Positions 51,449-58,960 of a stretch of DNA of 64,000 bases are shown here, one piece after another; positions within the stretch are counted from its first letter, which is position 1, and each line of letters starts with the position of its first letter. Under the pieces are notes generated by a model. It saw only the letters and a program-made list of their open reading frames with translations. It did no database searches and was not told the origin of the DNA. The DNA lies in the NCBI GenBank assembly GCA_021816885.1, contig JAKAWS010000004.1, positions 1 through 64,000 on the forward strand. Reading direction: 5' to 3'. The position numbers and the translations under genes are program-made. The DNA comes from Microcaldota archaeon. GTDB taxonomy: Archaea; Micrarchaeota; Micrarchaeia; Micrarchaeales; Micrarchaeaceae.

Positions 51449-52351
51449 TTATTTGGCGTTCAGTATGGTGCCGTAGCAGAAGATTCTTGGCATCGCCGCG
51501 CGGGCCAGCATGATGTTATCTCCGGTTTGGACTGCAAGTGGCCTGTCCAGCTTTAAGGAGATGTGATCGTCCTCAAAAGAATCTACATAAGCAGTTGTAT
51601 AAGAGAAGTTGGATACAAATGTATACGCCTTTCCTTTGAGTATCTCTTCCTTATTTATCTTTATTGTATCGATCTTCGCCACTATCTCTCTGCATGGAAC
51701 CACCCTTTTCGCTGACAGTATGTCGCCTTTTTCGACCTGGTCTGCCTCTATTCCTTTTACGGCTATACCGACGCGGGTGTTTGCCTCAGCTCTTTCTATG
51801 TCAACATCATTTGACTGTATCGATCTTATCGTTACTTCCGTTCCTGATGAACTCGATATGAGTTTATCGTGAACAGACACTGTCCCAGATTTCACTATGC
51901 CGAGAAGCACGGTTCCAATTCCCTTTACCACAAACGCTTTGTCTATGTCTATCCTAGTCTCTGTTCCTTTGTTCATTCGTTGGCTTGATGTGATTATATA
52001 TGGCAGTGAATCTGGCTCTACGGCCTTGATGCCTGAGAGCGACGTGCCGCTTATTAAGTCCGATATATCATTATCATTCGTTATCACAATCTCCTTATCT
52101 GTAATAGAGCAGGCAAGCAGCGCTTCCGCCAGGTATTTATCAATCCTCTTGGTAGAAACAACGACCATATCTGATAGGATTATCGATTCGCACATTGCAT
52201 GTATCTTATCTTCTACCGACGCCGGCGAGAGCGCTGTTATGTGATTTCCTAAATAGCTGCCATTGTAGTAGATTATGCTGTTCTCGCTGCTTTTCTTCCC
52301 CACCGTTCTTCCGAGCTCCGGGTCCATGAGGATAGAGGCTATAAAATGCAT
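51449..52351 (-). CDS. EF-Tu/SelB-like protein with degenerate G domain
   Basis: 300 residues from ATG 52351, preceded by AGGTGG at 5 nt spacing (a GTG inside that site is rejected). The C-terminal two-thirds carry translation-GTPase domains 2 and 3 (AFVVKGIGTVLLGIVKSGTVSVHDKLI, VGIAVKGIEADQVEKGDILS). The N-terminal ~120 residues keep the outline of a G domain but have no P-loop and no NKXD, so no GTP binding is expected. Similar degenerate paralogs of SelB/EF-1A occur in archaea with unknown role. Confidence 0.72.
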   Translation of the reverse strand: MHFIASILMDPELGRTVGKKSSENSIIYYNGSYLGNHITALSPASVEDKIHAMCESIILSDMVVVSTKRIDKYLAEALLACSITDKEIVITNDNDISDLISGTSLSGIKAVEPDSLPYIITSSQRMNKGTETRIDIDKAFVVKGIGTVLLGIVKSGTVSVHDKLISSSSGTEVTIRSIQSNDVDIERAEANTRVGIAVKGIEADQVEKGDILSAKRVVPCREIVAKIDTIKINKEEILKGKAYTFVSNFSYTTAYVDSFEDDHISLKLDRPLAVQTGDNIMLARAAMPRIFCYGTILNAK

Positions 52352-52436
52352 GATTTCCACCTAGACGGACAATATAGATGGAATACCTAGCAAACTTTAT
52401 ATATTTGATATATCTCATGGTAGTCAGGCGCATTAA

Positions 52437-53350: not shown

Positions 53351-53603
53351 CTTTTCCGGATAAAAGCGCGGCGGATTCTTTCACATTGCTGCAGCACGAT
53401 TGGAACATTCTAAGATTTGTAAGGTAATGAGGAAACGCCCACGTGAGAATTTTGGGCGGTTTCGAGTATGATCTTTGCCCGCGGTTTCGATGACATGGAC
53501 GGAGCATTGCACTACATAACTTCCGTGTTTTCGATGCCGCTGGTTTGCTTATTTGTTCTCCTCTTTATTACCATCGGCCGGAGCGATTTTCAAAAACAAA
53601 CAG

Positions 53604-53612
53604 TTATTAAAC
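53604..53612 (+). promoter_or_regulatory. TATA-like box before the AC-repeat ORF
   Basis: TTATTAAAC is centred about 31 nt before the ATG at 53639, so a message would start close to that ATG. The rest of the gap 53351-53603 holds nothing I can name. Confidence 0.4.
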
Positions 53613-53638
53613 TCGTACTACATTAATGGTGTGAGAAC

Positions 53639-53755
53639 ATGTTTGAGATTGTGCTGGGACGGGTTTCAGAGGGTTCGCAGAACCCCGGCAGCGTGACACA
53701 CACACACACACACACACACACCAGAAAACCCACGCCGGAAGATAACTCATTCTAA
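53639..53755 (+). CDS. Short ORF carrying the AC repeat as (Thr-His)n
   Basis: 38 codons: MFEIVLGRVSEGSQNPGSV, then alternating Thr-His from the AC tract, then RKPTPEDNSF and TAA. GGTGTG precedes the ATG at a reasonable distance. In the present frame it stops 17 nt before the pilin leader. One more AC unit, or two fewer, would put it in frame with the pilin gene with no stop between them. It may therefore be the 5' part of a phase-variable pilin gene rather than a gene of its own. Confidence 0.4.
   Translation: MFEIVLGRVSEGSQNPGSVTHTHTHTHTRKPTPEDNSF
53671..53685 (+). other. GGGTTC-GCA-GAACCC hairpin
   Basis: Perfect 6-bp stem with 3-nt loop, inside the short ORF and 10 nt before the AC tract. 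It could stall polymerase and favour slippage at the repeat; this is speculative. Confidence 0.35.
53696..53721 (+). repeat. (AC)13 dinucleotide microsatellite
   Basis: 26 bases of uninterrupted AC. Long dinucleotide tracts are rare in archaeal genomes and mutate by slippage. It lies 51 nt before the pilin leader, inside an open frame on the same strand. Confidence 0.85.
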
Positions 53756-53771
53756 AGACGAAAAAGTAGGG

Positions 53772-54722
53772 CTGAAATCGCAATCTGCGATGGAATATCT
53801 GATGACATACGGATGGGCGATACTCATCATCGCAATAGTACTGGTAGCGTTCTTCTCCCTCAACCTCTTCAATCCATACACGTTCTCCCCGAAAGCAAGT
53901 CCGGGAAGCTGCCAGATACTAAGACCGAATGGACCGGGCAGCAACCTGTTCGTTTCTGCGGTGGGACCGACATGCACCACCGACGAGATACCACAGTATG
54001 TGGCATCGATCTCAAACACCCCCAATAGCAGGATTATAGTCAGTCCTTCTCAAAGTATTGATACCACATGGGGCGGCGGCCCGTGGACAATTACCGCGTG
54101 GTTTAAGGACACTAGTCTTCCGGGTTCCACTCTTACTACGATTATAGAAGCCAACGGTTGCATTAGCGGTTCAACCCTATCCGGCTCCGGCAGTACTTAT
54201 GCAGCAGGCTTGAACCAGTGGTATCAGCAGATTTCCGCCAGCGGGAGCTCCGCGTGCAACGCTGTTGGTGGTGTTGGAACCTATACGCCATATGTGCTCG
54301 TGCTTGATAAGTGGTATATGCTGACTGCGGAATCCCAGCTTTCAGGTACAAATCTTATTACAACCGCGTGCTACAATAACCAGTGCACAACAGCCAATAC
54401 GGTTCTTCCCAACGGTTACATGGTCGAGAACTACGTGCAATATGGAGGACCTGAATTAATATTCGGGGAATACTGCTGTGCTCTTCCTTATTACGCTGGA
54501 CAAATAACAAACATCCAAATCTACAACACTTCCCTATCTTCAAGTGCAATAAATACACTCTATGCCGAAGGAATAGGCGGTGCACCTGTAGACATTCAGA
54601 ACCTCGTTGGCTGGTGGCCCCTCAACGGGAACTCCAACGACTACAGCGGCAACGGCAACAACGGCGTTCCTACCAACGTGGTCTTCACTTCCAACTGGGA
54701 GAGTGGTTACAGCGCACCGTGA
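53772..54722 (+). CDS. Class III signal peptide pilin/adhesin with LamG-like domain
   Basis: Leader K-S then QSAMEYLMTYGWAIL and a hydrophobic helix: the class III (type IV pilin) signal with Glu at +5 after the predicted cut before Gln. The body (about 85-300) looks like a concanavalin/LamG fold (PWTITAWFKDTS...LVGWWPLNGNSNDYSGNGNNG), with several Cys. The leader begins upstream of the first ATG in frame (53790), and no ATG, GTG or TTG precedes it before a stop at 53694. Translation must start at the CTG at 53772 (giving M-K-S-Q) or by fusion with the AC-repeat ORF. Confidence 0.75.
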   Translation: MKSQSAMEYLMTYGWAILIIAIVLVAFFSLNLFNPYTFSPKASPGSCQILRPNGPGSNLFVSAVGPTCTTDEIPQYVASISNTPNSRIIVSPSQSIDTTWGGGPWTITAWFKDTSLPGSTLTTIIEANGCISGSTLSGSGSTYAAGLNQWYQQISASGSSACNAVGGVGTYTPYVLVLDKWYMLTAESQLSGTNLITTACYNNQCTTANTVLPNGYMVENYVQYGGPELIFGEYCCALPYYAGQITNIQIYNTSLSSSAINTLYAEGIGGAPVDIQNLVGWWPLNGNSNDYSGNGNNGVPTNVVFTSNWESGYSAP

Positions 54723-54851
54723 TAACGGTCTTACAAATATGTGCTTATATTATCCTTGTAGCAACAAATTTTGAACTCTTAGTCCGATTAGCAATGCTTA
54801 TATATCTTTTTATGTATTATAATGTAGTGACATTATAATATATGTGATACC

Positions 54852-55103
54852 TTGAGCATAAAAGCAGTAACTAAAAGGAGATATACTACCATAACCATCC
54901 CTTCTGCGCTTTTCGCCAGGATAAAAAAGAGGATAGATGGCACAGGATTCTCTTCCGTATCCGATTATGTGACATACGTGCTAAGAGAGACGGTGGCAGA
55001 TATGGAAATGTCTGGCAAGGGCAATAGAACCGGAAAGAGAAGGGAGGATAGCACGATAATCGAAAGGCTGAAGGCCCTTGGGTATATAGACAACGCGAAG
55101 TAG
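54852..55103 (+). CDS. Ribbon-helix-helix protein
   Basis: 83 residues, TTG start. RRYTTITIPSALFARIKKRIDGTGFSSVSDYVTYVLRETV is a CopG/MetJ-type ribbon-helix-helix, followed by a basic tail. It probably represses its own promoter and the four genes behind it, all on the same strand with short gaps. TATA-like boxes lie at about 54796-54806 and 54833-54840. Confidence 0.75.
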   Translation: MSIKAVTKRRYTTITIPSALFARIKKRIDGTGFSSVSDYVTYVLRETVADMEMSGKGNRTGKRREDSTIIERLKALGYIDNAK

Positions 55104-55109
55104 ATTCCT

Positions 55110-55409
55110 ATGAAAGAGAACAAAAGTTCCAATATGGATTTCGGAAAGATGCTCGCGAAGAGCCCGACTAGGGATAACTGGTCCAAAGTCCCTACCTTTT
55201 TGAAGATGGAGGGCGCAAAGTATTATGAGGTAATGTATTCAAAAGGAGGCATAAAGGACTCCAACGATCTTGCGAAGTCTTCTGTGAGAGTGTGGAACTC
55301 GAGGAACAGGCTTATCTGCGAGTTCCCGCTTTTTGTGAAAGATAAAGGAAACTTCGAAGGAGCCCTTCATTTCTTTAAGGACCTAGTTCAGAAACCGCGG
55401 AAAATTTAG
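55110..55409 (+). CDS. Hypothetical protein of the CysDN-like block
   Basis: 99 residues, basic, mixed structure (WSKVPTFLKMEGAKYYEVMYS...LICEFPLFVKDKG). No motif recognised. It begins 6 nt after the ribbon-helix-helix gene and ends 11 nt before the CysD-like gene, so it belongs to the same transcription unit and perhaps the same complex. Confidence 0.6.
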   Translation: MKENKSSNMDFGKMLAKSPTRDNWSKVPTFLKMEGAKYYEVMYSKGGIKDSNDLAKSSVRVWNSRNRLICEFPLFVKDKGNFEGALHFFKDLVQKPRKI

Positions 55410-55420
55410 TAGGTCTTATC

Positions 55421-56209
55421 ATGATAAAACAAAACATCAACGAGCTTGAAGAGAAGAGCATATATGTAATAAGGGAGGCCAAATCCCGCTTCAATAAGAT
55501 GGCGGCGATGTGGAGCATGGGAAAAGACTCTACAGCCATGCTTGCGATAGCAAGAAAGGCGTTTCTTGGAAAGATCCCGTTCCCTGTCATACACATAGAC
55601 AACGGAATCGATTTCCCCGAGAGCTACAAGTTCAGAAACGATCTCGCCGAGAAGTGGGGAATGGAAGTCATAGTCGCAAAAAGCAAGATAAAGCCGGAGA
55701 TATCAGGATACAGCTGCTGCGGCTCGAACAAGACCGTCGCTTTAAAAAAAGTCCTTAATGAATATGGGTTCGAGGCGCTCATCGTCTCTATACGCAGGGA
55801 CGAACATGCTGTACGCGCAAAAGAGAGATACATAAGCCCCAGAGACAGGAACTTCAAATGGAATTATAAGGATCAGCCGGCAGAGGTGTGGAACAGCTAC
55901 TCCTCCAAACTCGACAAGAAGGGGCATCTTAGGGTGCACCCCCTTCTTGACTGGAACGAAATAGACATCTGGTCTTACATAAAGAAGAACAATGTCCCGA
56001 TCAATCCATTGTATTACTCGAACAATGGATATAGGTATAGAAGTTTGGGATGCACGCACTGCACTGTGCCGATAAGGTCCAATGCCAAGAGCATAGACTC
56101 CATAATAAAGGAACTTGAATCAACCAAGGTAGAGGAGAGATCTGGCCGCGAGCAGGACAAGGAAAAGGCGTATATCATGGAGAAACTCAGATCTCTTGGT
56201 TACTTGTAA
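55421..56209 (+). CDS. CysD-like PP-loop ATPase with APS-reductase-type cysteines
   Basis: 262 residues. PP-loop SMGKDS (32-37); RRDEHAVRAKER (125-136), PRDRNFKW and a C-terminal ERSGREQDKEKA are CysD (sulfate adenylyltransferase small subunit) features. Unlike CysD it has Cys99-Cys100 before K..ALK and Cys211-x2-Cys214 in YRSLGCTHCTVP, the spacing style that binds a [4Fe-4S] cluster in APS reductases. It lacks the ECGLH tail of reductases. It may be an iron-sulfur CysD, or a new enzyme using adenylylated sulfur. Followed by a CysN-like GTPase after 11 nt. Confidence 0.78.
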   Translation: MIKQNINELEEKSIYVIREAKSRFNKMAAMWSMGKDSTAMLAIARKAFLGKIPFPVIHIDNGIDFPESYKFRNDLAEKWGMEVIVAKSKIKPEISGYSCCGSNKTVALKKVLNEYGFEALIVSIRRDEHAVRAKERYISPRDRNFKWNYKDQPAEVWNSYSSKLDKKGHLRVHPLLDWNEIDIWSYIKKNNVPINPLYYSNNGYRYRSLGCTHCTVPIRSNAKSIDSIIKELESTKVEERSGREQDKEKAYIMEKLRSLGYL

Positions 56210-56220
56210 AAGGCATTACG

Positions 56221-57435
56221 ATGATAATAAACGAGGTGACCCTTCTCGGGCACAAGGATCATGGAAAATCAACCTTGATAGGCAATATCCTCATACTTAC
56301 AAAGTCAGTAACAAAGGCCAGAATCGAAAGCGCGAAGGCGATGAGCAAAAGGCTTGGGAGGGCTTTCGAACCAGGATTCCTGCTCGATAGCTTCGAGGAG
56401 GAGCAAGAAGACGCGATGACAATAGATACTACACGTGCGCAGATAAAATATAAAGGGAAGGGTTTTGAGTTCATAGATGTCCCAGGTCACGAAGAACTGA
56501 TAAAGAACATGATAAGCGGAGCATCGCACGCCCGCTTCGCCATACTTGTAGTGTCTGCCAAATCAGGAGAAGGGATAAGTCCGCAGACAAAACGTCATCT
56601 CTTCATTGCAAAGATGATGGGGATAAGAAGCATTGCTGTCTGCGTGAATAAGATGGATACAGTAGATTACGATAGGGGCATATTTGATTCTATATCTACC
56701 GAACTTGGTTCTTTCTTGAAAGTAATAGGGTTCGGCGGAGATTCCATATTTTTTGTGCCGGTTTCAGCTTACACAGGCGAGAATATAGTTGCCTGTTCTA
56801 AAAAGATGCAATGGTATAAAGGCAGACCGCTCTTGGATATATTGGCAGAACTGTCAGTCAGCAGAAAGCTCGCACATGAGCCTGTGCGCTTTATCTTCCA
56901 AGGAAGCATAGATGCAGGAGGAAAGAGGGCTTACATAGGCAAGCTGGCAAGCGGCAATATACGAAGGGGCGAAAAGATAGCGGTTTCTCCTATCAGAAGG
57001 AGATTTTCCGTCGAGACCATATTCATAAAAGGGAGAATGGCTTTGGTGGCCAAGCGCGGCGAGAACGCTGCTTTCGTGCTTGCGCCTGAGCCAAAAACAA
57101 ACCTCAGGGGTATGGTCGGTTGCACTGCAGATAACGTGATAGACGGAAAAAGAGAGCTAAATGCGCTCATATTCAGCGTGGACAGGCTGCCAAAGAAAGG
57201 AAAGATAAGGGTAAACGGTGCAGACCATAACTGCGTGATAAATGTGCGCGCAGAGATAGACACATCAGACGGAAAACCAAAAAAGAGCTCTGTGATAAGA
57301 CCGCTTGAGGCCGGCGAAGCGGTAATCAGGCTCAAAGAACCAATTTGCGTAGAGCCTTTTTCCATATCGGAAGAGATAGGGAGATTCACGATTTATGATA
57401 AGGAGAGGTTTGTGGGCTTTGGCATAGTAAAGTGA
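56221..57435 (+). CDS. CysN-like translation-factor-type GTPase
   Basis: 404 residues. G1 GHKDHGKSTLIG (about 10-21), switch-like DTTRAQIKY, G3 DVPGHEELIKNM, G4 NKMD (about 142-145), G5 VPVSAYTGEN, then two beta-barrel domains. Its partner gene is CysD-like and the length fits CysN, which uses GTP hydrolysis to drive APS formation. Several barrel regions are diverged. SelB or EF-1A paralogs are alternatives, but the adjacent CysD-like gene favours CysN. Confidence 0.78.
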   Translation: MIINEVTLLGHKDHGKSTLIGNILILTKSVTKARIESAKAMSKRLGRAFEPGFLLDSFEEEQEDAMTIDTTRAQIKYKGKGFEFIDVPGHEELIKNMISGASHARFAILVVSAKSGEGISPQTKRHLFIAKMMGIRSIAVCVNKMDTVDYDRGIFDSISTELGSFLKVIGFGGDSIFFVPVSAYTGENIVACSKKMQWYKGRPLLDILAELSVSRKLAHEPVRFIFQGSIDAGGKRAYIGKLASGNIRRGEKIAVSPIRRRFSVETIFIKGRMALVAKRGENAAFVLAPEPKTNLRGMVGCTADNVIDGKRELNALIFSVDRLPKKGKIRVNGADHNCVINVRAEIDTSDGKPKKSSVIRPLEAGEAVIRLKEPICVEPFSISEEIGRFTIYDKERFVGFGIVK

Positions 57436-57436
57436 T

Positions 57437-58960
57437 ATGATGGACCGAAAAAAACTCTATCTTATAGGAATCGACGCTGCACCCCTTTGGATAATCAAGG
57501 ATAACTATGCAAAATATAAGATGAAGGGTTTTGCAAAGTTCTTCGAGACCGGTGTCCTTACGGAGCTAGAGTCTACACTCCCGCCAATGACCGGACCATC
57601 TTGGCCTAGCATGTATACTGGAGTAAGGCCAGGAGTGCATGGAATCCCTGACTTCTTTACGCTCAAGTCTAATTACACCAAAGAGGTTGCTTACTACGAC
57701 CCTGACCTTTGCGAGCCGTTCTGGGAGGTGATGGGGCGCAGTGATCTCAGATCTCTTCTGGTGACTCCCGCAATGGCAGTACGCCTTCCGAAAAGCAAGA
57801 ATGTGGACATGATGACAGGCTTCCCCCTGCCGCCGAAGTTCAGTTCTGATGAGATAAGGAAGACTGCAAAACGGTATGGATTCGATGGAGAGCCAAACAT
57901 AGAGAAGAAGATAAAGAGCAAGGAGATGAGCCTTGCAGAGGCATCGAAGGTTTACGTCGATAGCATAAGAAGGAGGGGCGAGTTCAGCAAACACTTGATA
58001 GATAAGAATAGATACGACTTCTCGTTTATATGCTTTACCGAGACAGACAGGATACAGCACTTCTCTTTGAATCTGCCTGAATGGAAGAACTACGTTTTGC
58101 CGCTTTACCAGGAAATCTCGAGGTTCTTGGAGTGGGTGGATGCCAGGGCGCAGAAGGAAGGCGCTTTGGTGCTGCTCGCATCTGACCATGGTGCCCAGCC
58201 GATAAAGAGCAAGTTCCTGATGAACGCATGGCTCATAAACAATAGGTATGCATCGTTAAAACCCGAGATAGAAGCGCAGAACAAAGAGACTGCGGGAAGC
58301 AGCGGCAGAGCCAAGTACATGATAAGGGAGCGTATTATAGGGAGCAAGTTAAGGAAGGTCTATGACAAGCTTCCAAATGTAGGCAAGAGCATAGCCAAGG
58401 GCACGCTCAGCAAGTTTCTGGCGGCGTCATCTGGCGAAGATTATACGCGCATCCATGATTTCGATTTTGATATGGATAGGACTTTGGCGTTCAGCAGCAT
58501 ATCCAACTGGACAGTGTGCGCGATTTACATAAACGACAGACGTTTCGACAACGGGATTGTAAGCGCAGAGAAGAAAAAGAGACTGAAAACAGAGTTAGTG
58601 AGGAAGTTCATGCAGATAAAGGACGAGAACGGAAATAGGCTTATGGTAAGAGCATTTGACGCTGACGAGTACTACGAGGGCACAAAGCTGTTTATAGCGC
58701 CAGACATAATGGTCGAGATAAAGAAAGGCTATTTCATAGATGTGTTCGGCTACCTCAAAAGCGGAGGCCTGTTCATGAAGCCAGAAATGGCAAAACGCGG
58801 AGACCACATGAACGAGGGAATCTTCGGCGCAATAGACTACACGTCTGGCCGCAAGCCAAAAAAGCGCCACGCACTCTATGTTTATCAGATAAATCCGACA
58901 GTGCTATCCTATTTCGGGTTTAAGCCTAGCAACGACAGGCGCTACAAGAGCGCATTATGA
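57437..58960 (+). CDS. Alkaline-phosphatase-superfamily phosphodiesterase/sulfatase-like enzyme
   Basis: 507 residues. GIDAAPLWI (metal Asp) near the start, the nucleophile Thr in PPMTGPSWPSMYTG (about 48-60), TETDRIQHF, ASDHGAQP and GDHMNEGIFGA give the two-metal site of nucleotide pyrophosphatase/phosphodiesterases. The start is ATG 57437 or 57440, 2-5 nt after the CysN-like stop. In this operon it may hydrolyse a sulfated or adenylylated product; substrate unknown. It converges with the membrane protein gene, overlapping by 6 nt. Confidence 0.8.
   Translation: MMDRKKLYLIGIDAAPLWIIKDNYAKYKMKGFAKFFETGVLTELESTLPPMTGPSWPSMYTGVRPGVHGIPDFFTLKSNYTKEVAYYDPDLCEPFWEVMGRSDLRSLLVTPAMAVRLPKSKNVDMMTGFPLPPKFSSDEIRKTAKRYGFDGEPNIEKKIKSKEMSLAEASKVYVDSIRRRGEFSKHLIDKNRYDFSFICFTETDRIQHFSLNLPEWKNYVLPLYQEISRFLEWVDARAQKEGALVLLASDHGAQPIKSKFLMNAWLINNRYASLKPEIEAQNKETAGSSGRAKYMIRERIIGSKLRKVYDKLPNVGKSIAKGTLSKFLAASSGEDYTRIHDFDFDMDRTLAFSSISNWTVCAIYINDRRFDNGIVSAEKKKRLKTELVRKFMQIKDENGNRLMVRAFDADEYYEGTKLFIAPDIMVEIKKGYFIDVFGYLKSGGLFMKPEMAKRGDHMNEGIFGAIDYTSGRKPKKRHALYVYQINPTVLSYFGFKPSNDRRYKSAL

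Follow-up and report, generated by a model that had tools for sequence, protein, structure and literature searches.

Why do archaea with reduced genomes of ~1 Mb retain an enzyme that spends ATP and GTP on each sulfate it activates, together with a dedicated regulator, when none of the known users of its product that we searched for was found? The question is raised by a block of five genes in a 64,000-nucleotide (nt) stretch of DNA (the window; positions 1 to 64,000, forward strand, of contig JAKAWS010000004.1) from a Microcaldota archaeon of the phylum Micrarchaeota, part of a 0.8 Mb genome assembly of 21 contigs (GCA_021816885.1). The block encodes a putative ribbon-helix-helix (RHH) regulator, a 99-residue protein that we call UNK, the CysD and CysN subunits of an ATP sulfurylase, and a phosphodiesterase (PDE) of the alkaline-phosphatase (AP) superfamily. 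We put at about even the chance that it is an autoregulated operon that makes adenosine 5'-phosphosulfate (APS) for a non-reductive use, probably sulfation of a surface glycan or lipid, with the AP-superfamily enzyme handling APS or its product. The features of the block, in window coordinates, are as follows.

54798..54805, + strand: TATA-box-like element TTATATAT of the operon promoter, found in the sequence ~26 nt upstream of the operator center
54815..54840, no strand: operator, a perfect 11-bp inverted repeat (TATTATAATGT-AGTG-ACATTATAATA, core TAATGTNNNNACATTA) that overlaps the predicted transcription start
54852..55103, + strand: RHH regulator, 83 residues, TTG start, with a C-terminal tail (...IIERLKALGYIDNAK) resembling that of CysD
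55110..55409, + strand: UNK, a 99-residue alpha + beta protein, conserved partner of no assigned family; AlphaFold2 (AF2) model with a predicted local distance difference test (pLDDT) score of 82
55421..56209, + strand: CysD, ATP sulfurylase catalytic subunit, with PP-loop SMGKDS, RRDE...RAKER, candidate Fe-S motif CC...CxxC, and tail MEKLRSLGYL
56221..57435, + strand: CysN, ATP sulfurylase regulatory GTPase, with GHKDHGKST, DVPGHEE, and NKMD motifs
57437..58960, + strand: PDE, AP-superfamily phosphodiesterase (PF01663), with Thr52 as nucleophile and ligands D13, D204, H208, D250, H251, and H457

As an earlier sequence-only reading of this DNA had described, the five open reading frames (ORFs) are tightly spaced on one strand, with intergenic gaps of 6, 11, 11, and 1 nt; the gene 3' of the block is in convergent orientation.

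Multiple comparisons indicate that CysDN is, by sequence, a genuine ATP sulfurylase, a firmer identification than the CysD-like and CysN-like labels of that reading. First, CysD matched PF01507 (2.6e-39) and the NCBIfam CysD model NF003587 (295 bits; cut-off 195), and in a tree of 25 rows it fell inside the CysD clade (support 98/98), apart from CysH and from a second PP-loop type. Second, its PP-loop SxGKDS, RRDE...RAKER, and ERSGR...DKE...LGYL motifs are intact relative to those of E. coli and other CysD proteins. It scored below the cut-off of TIGR02039, an E. coli-like model of ~300 residues (218 vs. 396.6 bits), and lacks the insert found in the longer CysD form; on these grounds it is a short-subtype CysD, not a TIGR02039 member. 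Third, the GTPase matched GTP_EFTU (7.7e-41) and EF1A/CysN-type domains and grouped in a tree with bacterial CysN (support 99/98), apart from 17 micrarchaeal EF-1As, and not with EF-1A, EF-Tu, or aIF2g. Finally, we compared with known structures an AF2 model of the CysD-CysN pair from a relative (L034), in which the two genes lie in one frame; stops were read through for the model (predicted template-modeling score 0.79). Among the matches listed, the top template-modeling (TM) score, 0.84, was to Pseudomonas syringae CysN (1zun_B), and the EF1A entries listed reached at most 0.76.

An explanation that makes the GTPase a paralog of EF-1A or SelB, incidentally next to CysD, can draw on the NCBIfam scores, where the EF-1A model (254 bits) exceeded the CysN models (226 bits); all were below cut-off, with no translational-GTPase or CysN model of that library reaching its own, and the score against TIGR02034 CysN was 213 bits (cut-off 336). 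The tree, barring long-branch effects, and the fold reject an EF-1A or SelB identity, however, and the gene adjoins cysD in the sampled relatives; we regard this explanation as having almost no chance of being correct. Clade and motifs place the two proteins in CysD and CysN despite scores below the TIGR02039 and TIGR02034 cut-offs, and CysDN very probably makes APS.

Is the block a property of one genome? We sampled 99 genomes drawn from the same genus, family, and order, 46 of them at least 90% complete; the search for the whole gene set covered Micrarchaeota genomes. CysD was present in 80 of the 99, at 61-93% identity, far above the values for CysN (~45%) and UNK (~30%); across the phylum it was found in 129 of 295 genomes, only eight of them outside the order. 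The arrangement RHH-UNK-CysD-CysN was repeated in the 20 neighborhoods read; RHH was divergent in some of them, and UNK escaped detection in one (L047). The five-gene neighborhood proposed earlier thus stood for its first four genes, which are the core of the block, and gave way at PDE, which is more variable. RHH and CysD occurred together in 73 genomes, CysD alone in 7, RHH alone in 4, and neither in 15 (Fisher p=2e-9). Among the genomes with RHH only, G022 and G027 have it beside the second PP-loop protein and G077 has it at a contig end. Neither of the two outcomes that the sequence-only reading had named against itself, a neighborhood confined to this genome without co-occurrence and a GTPase grouping firmly with SelB/EF-1A, was observed. 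For UNK, domain-library scans assigned no family, and its model had no significant match in the PDB (best, eL38; E=0.29). One relative, G085, carries a 229-residue ORF inserted between UNK and cysD (L130 3983-4672) that looks by eye like a homing endonuclease.

How is the operon controlled? The palindromic operator at the RHH promoter is new here. It lies directly after the TATA-like element, and was expected zero times in shuffled sequences. Most relatives keep it at their RHH promoter, along with the arrangement of TTTATATAT followed by the palindrome. By our own count its core occurs 51 times across the 99 genomes, compared with ~14 occurrences of a reversed control pattern, and ~41 of the 51 copies belong to the RHH/cysDN locus or to RHH promoters; the operator is nearly specific to the RHH-cysDN operon. 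Five of the ~10 remaining copies are immediately upstream of TauE/TSUP transporter genes (G065, G067, G079, G082, and G095), and the copies found in G071 and G029, which fall within coding sequence, were taken as chance occurrences. G085 has a second operator copy before cysN, and a TSUP gene lies 3' of the operon in G101 and beside it in G007. TauE/TSUP proteins are anion transporters that carry sulfur oxyanions, and the operator copies that precede their genes, together with the TSUP genes that adjoin the operon, tie the RHH regulator independently to a sulfur-oxyanion role. Pfam recognizes the RHH fold weakly (RHH_1, 0.005, in ortholog L036).

RHH and CysD also have in common, almost exclusively, a C-terminal tail, KL(R/K)xLGY. 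Among 1772 ORFs in ~100 loci, 108 ended in (R/K)x(L)GY: 62 CysD, 41 RHH, 3 of the second PP-loop type, and 2 unrelated. Bacterial CysD C-termini also end in GYL, GYM, or GYF, and the tail therefore looks old in CysD and acquired in RHH. A small RHH gene followed by a small gene of no assigned family is a typical toxin-antitoxin layout, and RHH and UNK might be such a pair that merely sits beside cysDN. We consider this very improbable, as RHH tracks CysD genome by genome, occurs without UNK in distant families, shares the CysD tail, and has an operator that also precedes TSUP genes; there was no PADLOC or toxin-family match. Reading the block as a defense system was likewise rejected, with PADLOC returning only the distant PP-loop domains BrxP and QueC.

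Just past the window end, positions 64418-65746 of the same contig (L117) repeat 53413-54005 and 54510-54860 at 88-90% identity, including the end of a LamG-type gene and a second operator copy. This repeat is a duplicated or strain-variant second operon start, truncated by the contig end.

What consumes the APS? The block had been said to contain no APS kinase, 3'-phosphoadenosine 5'-phosphosulfate (PAPS) reductase, or sulfite reductase, and these absences extend to whole genomes. No APS kinase was recognizable in the 99 relatives or in the eight genomes from outside the order that have CysDN, and a set of 59 genomes, of which 40 reach at least 90% completeness, showed neither CysH nor a NIR_SIR domain of sulfite reductase. 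Because 46 of the 99 genomes are at least 90% complete, incompleteness alone cannot explain these results. Proteins matching PF01507 strongly were essentially CysD only, the exception being the second type without Fe-S cysteines, seen in a few genomes (among them G022, G027, G035, and the L191 genome). This second PAPS_reduct protein (L127 3478-4263, L131 35-829, and L132 6849-7637) has the same LGY tail and adjoins RHH and AP-superfamily genes; in L131, UNK also ends in LSALGYM. With the defining enzymes searched for and not found, the operon lies outside both assimilatory sulfate reduction and standard PAPS-dependent sulfation, and in genomes without recognizable APS-reducing or PAPS-making enzymes, APS is most likely made for a non-reductive purpose.

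Two conventional fates can be set against this evidence. Sulfated glycans normally require PAPS, and these genomes encode several P-loop kinases of unknown substrate, so that ordinary PAPS-based sulfation might proceed with an APS kinase and a sulfotransferase from families missed by the models used. Against it, PF01583 gave only partial P-loop matches of 17-27 bits in the 99 + 9 genomes but was positive in 11 of 14 controls, and the weak matches that were read were other P-loop proteins. No sulfotransferase of PF13469 was found in the 99 genomes and none of PF00685 in 59 (PF03567, PF05935, and others were not searched), and no kinase gene recurred in the operon among the neighborhoods read. 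We judge this fate unlikely, although it deserves serious consideration. Alternatively, CysDN could serve assimilatory sulfate reduction, the missing steps being supplied by unknown enzymes or by a host cell. CysDN elsewhere normally feeds cysteine synthesis, the CC...CxxC cysteines shared by micrarchaeal, Ilyobacter, and Gemmatirosa CysD also occur in [4Fe-4S] APS reductases of the CysH type, and the Ilyobacter CysD of this subtype sits with AprA and CysC. These cysteines, which are absent from E. coli CysD, may bind an Fe-S cluster in the micrarchaeal protein, but that protein lacks the catalytic ECGLH cysteine of CysH; given this and the absence of CysH and NIR_SIR noted above, a reductive role is improbable.

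Could the fifth gene be the missing enzyme? PDE, of ~500 residues, matched PF01663 (5.9e-28). In an alignment of nine sequences, D204, H208, D250, H251, and H457 are invariant and Thr or Ser occupies the nucleophile position; D13 is present in all rows but one, whose predicted start lacks that region. The match to PF00884 was 0.22, and MTGPSW stands where the formylglycine motif CxPxR of a true sulfatase is expected; neighboring PF00884 relatives likewise have Thr at the formylglycine position. Retention of the AP-superfamily ligands and the Thr52 nucleophile indicates a phosphodiesterase/pyrophosphatase type, not a formylglycine sulfatase, and PDE is predicted to be cytosolic from the absence of an evident signal peptide. 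A scan with PDE found 69 micrarchaeal loci, with CysD within 8 kb in 31 of them (~2% expected) and the second PP-loop protein in 3. Together with the RHH/CysD counts above, this result bears out the proposed association of a small regulator and an AP-superfamily hydrolase with the sulfate-activation pair. The ~500-residue form is adjacent in part of the order and is replaced elsewhere by smaller AP-superfamily enzymes or PF00884 proteins: an enzyme of PF01663 type and 230-290 residues lies directly 3' of cysN in five genomes outside the order (G101, G131, G137, G160, and G161), and some others have PF00884-type relatives next to the operon. Of the proteins encoded here, the AP-superfamily enzyme is the strongest candidate to act on APS or its product. 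Frequent neighbors also include glycan genes (GT4, Wzx-type Polysacc_synt, PS_pyruv_trans, and an epimerase and a sugar mutase, the last two named by eye), and this context favors sulfation of a surface glycan or lipid.

The same enzymes permit a different chemistry, in which CysDN adenylylates a target other than sulfate, be it an oxyanion, a small molecule, or a macromolecule, and the AP-superfamily enzyme or a HIT protein removes AMP. No APS consumer is recognizable, and both the hydrolase, which resembles nucleotide pyrophosphatases/phosphodiesterases, and a HIT-family protein whose gene in G101 separates cysD from cysN (L226 8462-8908) belong to nucleotide-cleaving families. The active-site motifs match those of true CysD, however, and a TSUP anion transporter is part of the regulon; we rate a non-sulfate target as quite unlikely. 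HIT proteins can split APS, and the G101 protein may thus itself be an APS-handling enzyme.

In the non-reductive, APS-making scheme that we prefer, sulfate would be taken up, in some relatives through the co-regulated TSUP permease, and converted to APS by the GTP-driven sulfurylase. By binding the palindrome over the transcription start, RHH would repress the promoter of its own gene as well as, in relatives, those of cysN and TSUP; through its CysD-like tail it may detect the state that CysDN is in. APS would then support sulfation of a surface glycan or lipid via the linked glycosyltransferases, a step to which we give slightly less than an even chance. The AP-superfamily enzyme of the operon would act on a sulfated or phosphorylated product or, as a transferase or hydrolase, on APS itself; action on APS is possible but doubtful. 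A bolder version, in which sulfation is PAPS-independent, the cysDN-linked AP enzyme uses APS as a sulfuryl or adenylyl donor on the surface glycan or lipid, and RHH reads CysDN through its tail, is a long shot.

Several observations weigh against this scheme. With neither a sulfotransferase nor PAPS synthesis found, the sulfation step has no identified enzyme, and we know of no phosphodiesterase-type AP enzyme with a Thr nucleophile that transfers sulfate. About half of the PDE loci lack an adjacent CysDN, glycan genes are common neighbors of many genes, and some of the metagenome bins are incomplete. In the read-through CysD-CysN model, moreover, the CysD tail and linker are disordered (pLDDT below 50), so that no docking site supports mimicry by the RHH tail.

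Retention of a costly reaction in such small genomes points to an unrecognized enzyme that consumes APS and, probably, to surface molecules bearing sulfate in this DPANN lineage, and the operator, RHH, and TSUP provide a concrete regulon to accompany a candidate enzyme family.

Two genes upstream of the block are also of note. The protein encoded at 53790-54722 starts like a pilin (MEYLMTYGWAILIIAIVLVAFF), as do proteins in other relatives, and weakly matches a LamG-type domain. The gene at 51449-52360 encodes a SelB-like protein with EF-Tu domain 2 and no recognizable GTPase domain, resembling the archaeal SelB-like group aSelBL (PMC4342817).

How does the operon compare with known systems? 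In our literature search, micrarchaeal CysDN turned up only where summaries mention a sulfate adenylyltransferase; archaeal CysDN of ANME is known (PMC6286981). The GTP-driven CysDN enzymes of E. coli, P. syringae (1ZUN), and ANME share both subunits, the cysD-cysN order, active-site motifs, clade, and a CysN-like model with the micrarchaeal pair, which differs in its own RHH and UNK partners, in a CysD of the CC...CxxC subtype, and in genomes where CysC, CysH, and sulfite reductase were not found. The closest described arrangements seen here are bacterial. The CysD encoded by the Ilyobacter polytropus plasmid operon (DASS symporter-cysC-aprA-ferredoxin-cysD-GTPase) shares the CC...CxxC and RYRSLGCxxCT motifs and resembles the micrarchaeal protein in its tail, but that operon has the APS kinase and APS reductase that Micrarchaeota lack. 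In Skermanella, a plasmid cysD-cysN/C pair near a sulfotransferase gene likewise places CysDN near polysaccharide genes in a sulfation context, but that plasmid, unlike the micrarchaeal genomes, encodes APS kinase as a fusion with CysN and carries the sulfotransferase gene. PDE, for its part, shares metal ligands and nucleophile position with PF01663 phosphodiesterases and nucleotide pyrophosphatases, its nearest solved sequences being PafA and phosphonoacetate hydrolase, and is set apart from them by its linkage to cysDN and by close relatives that, in our genome scan, are confined to Micrarchaeota.

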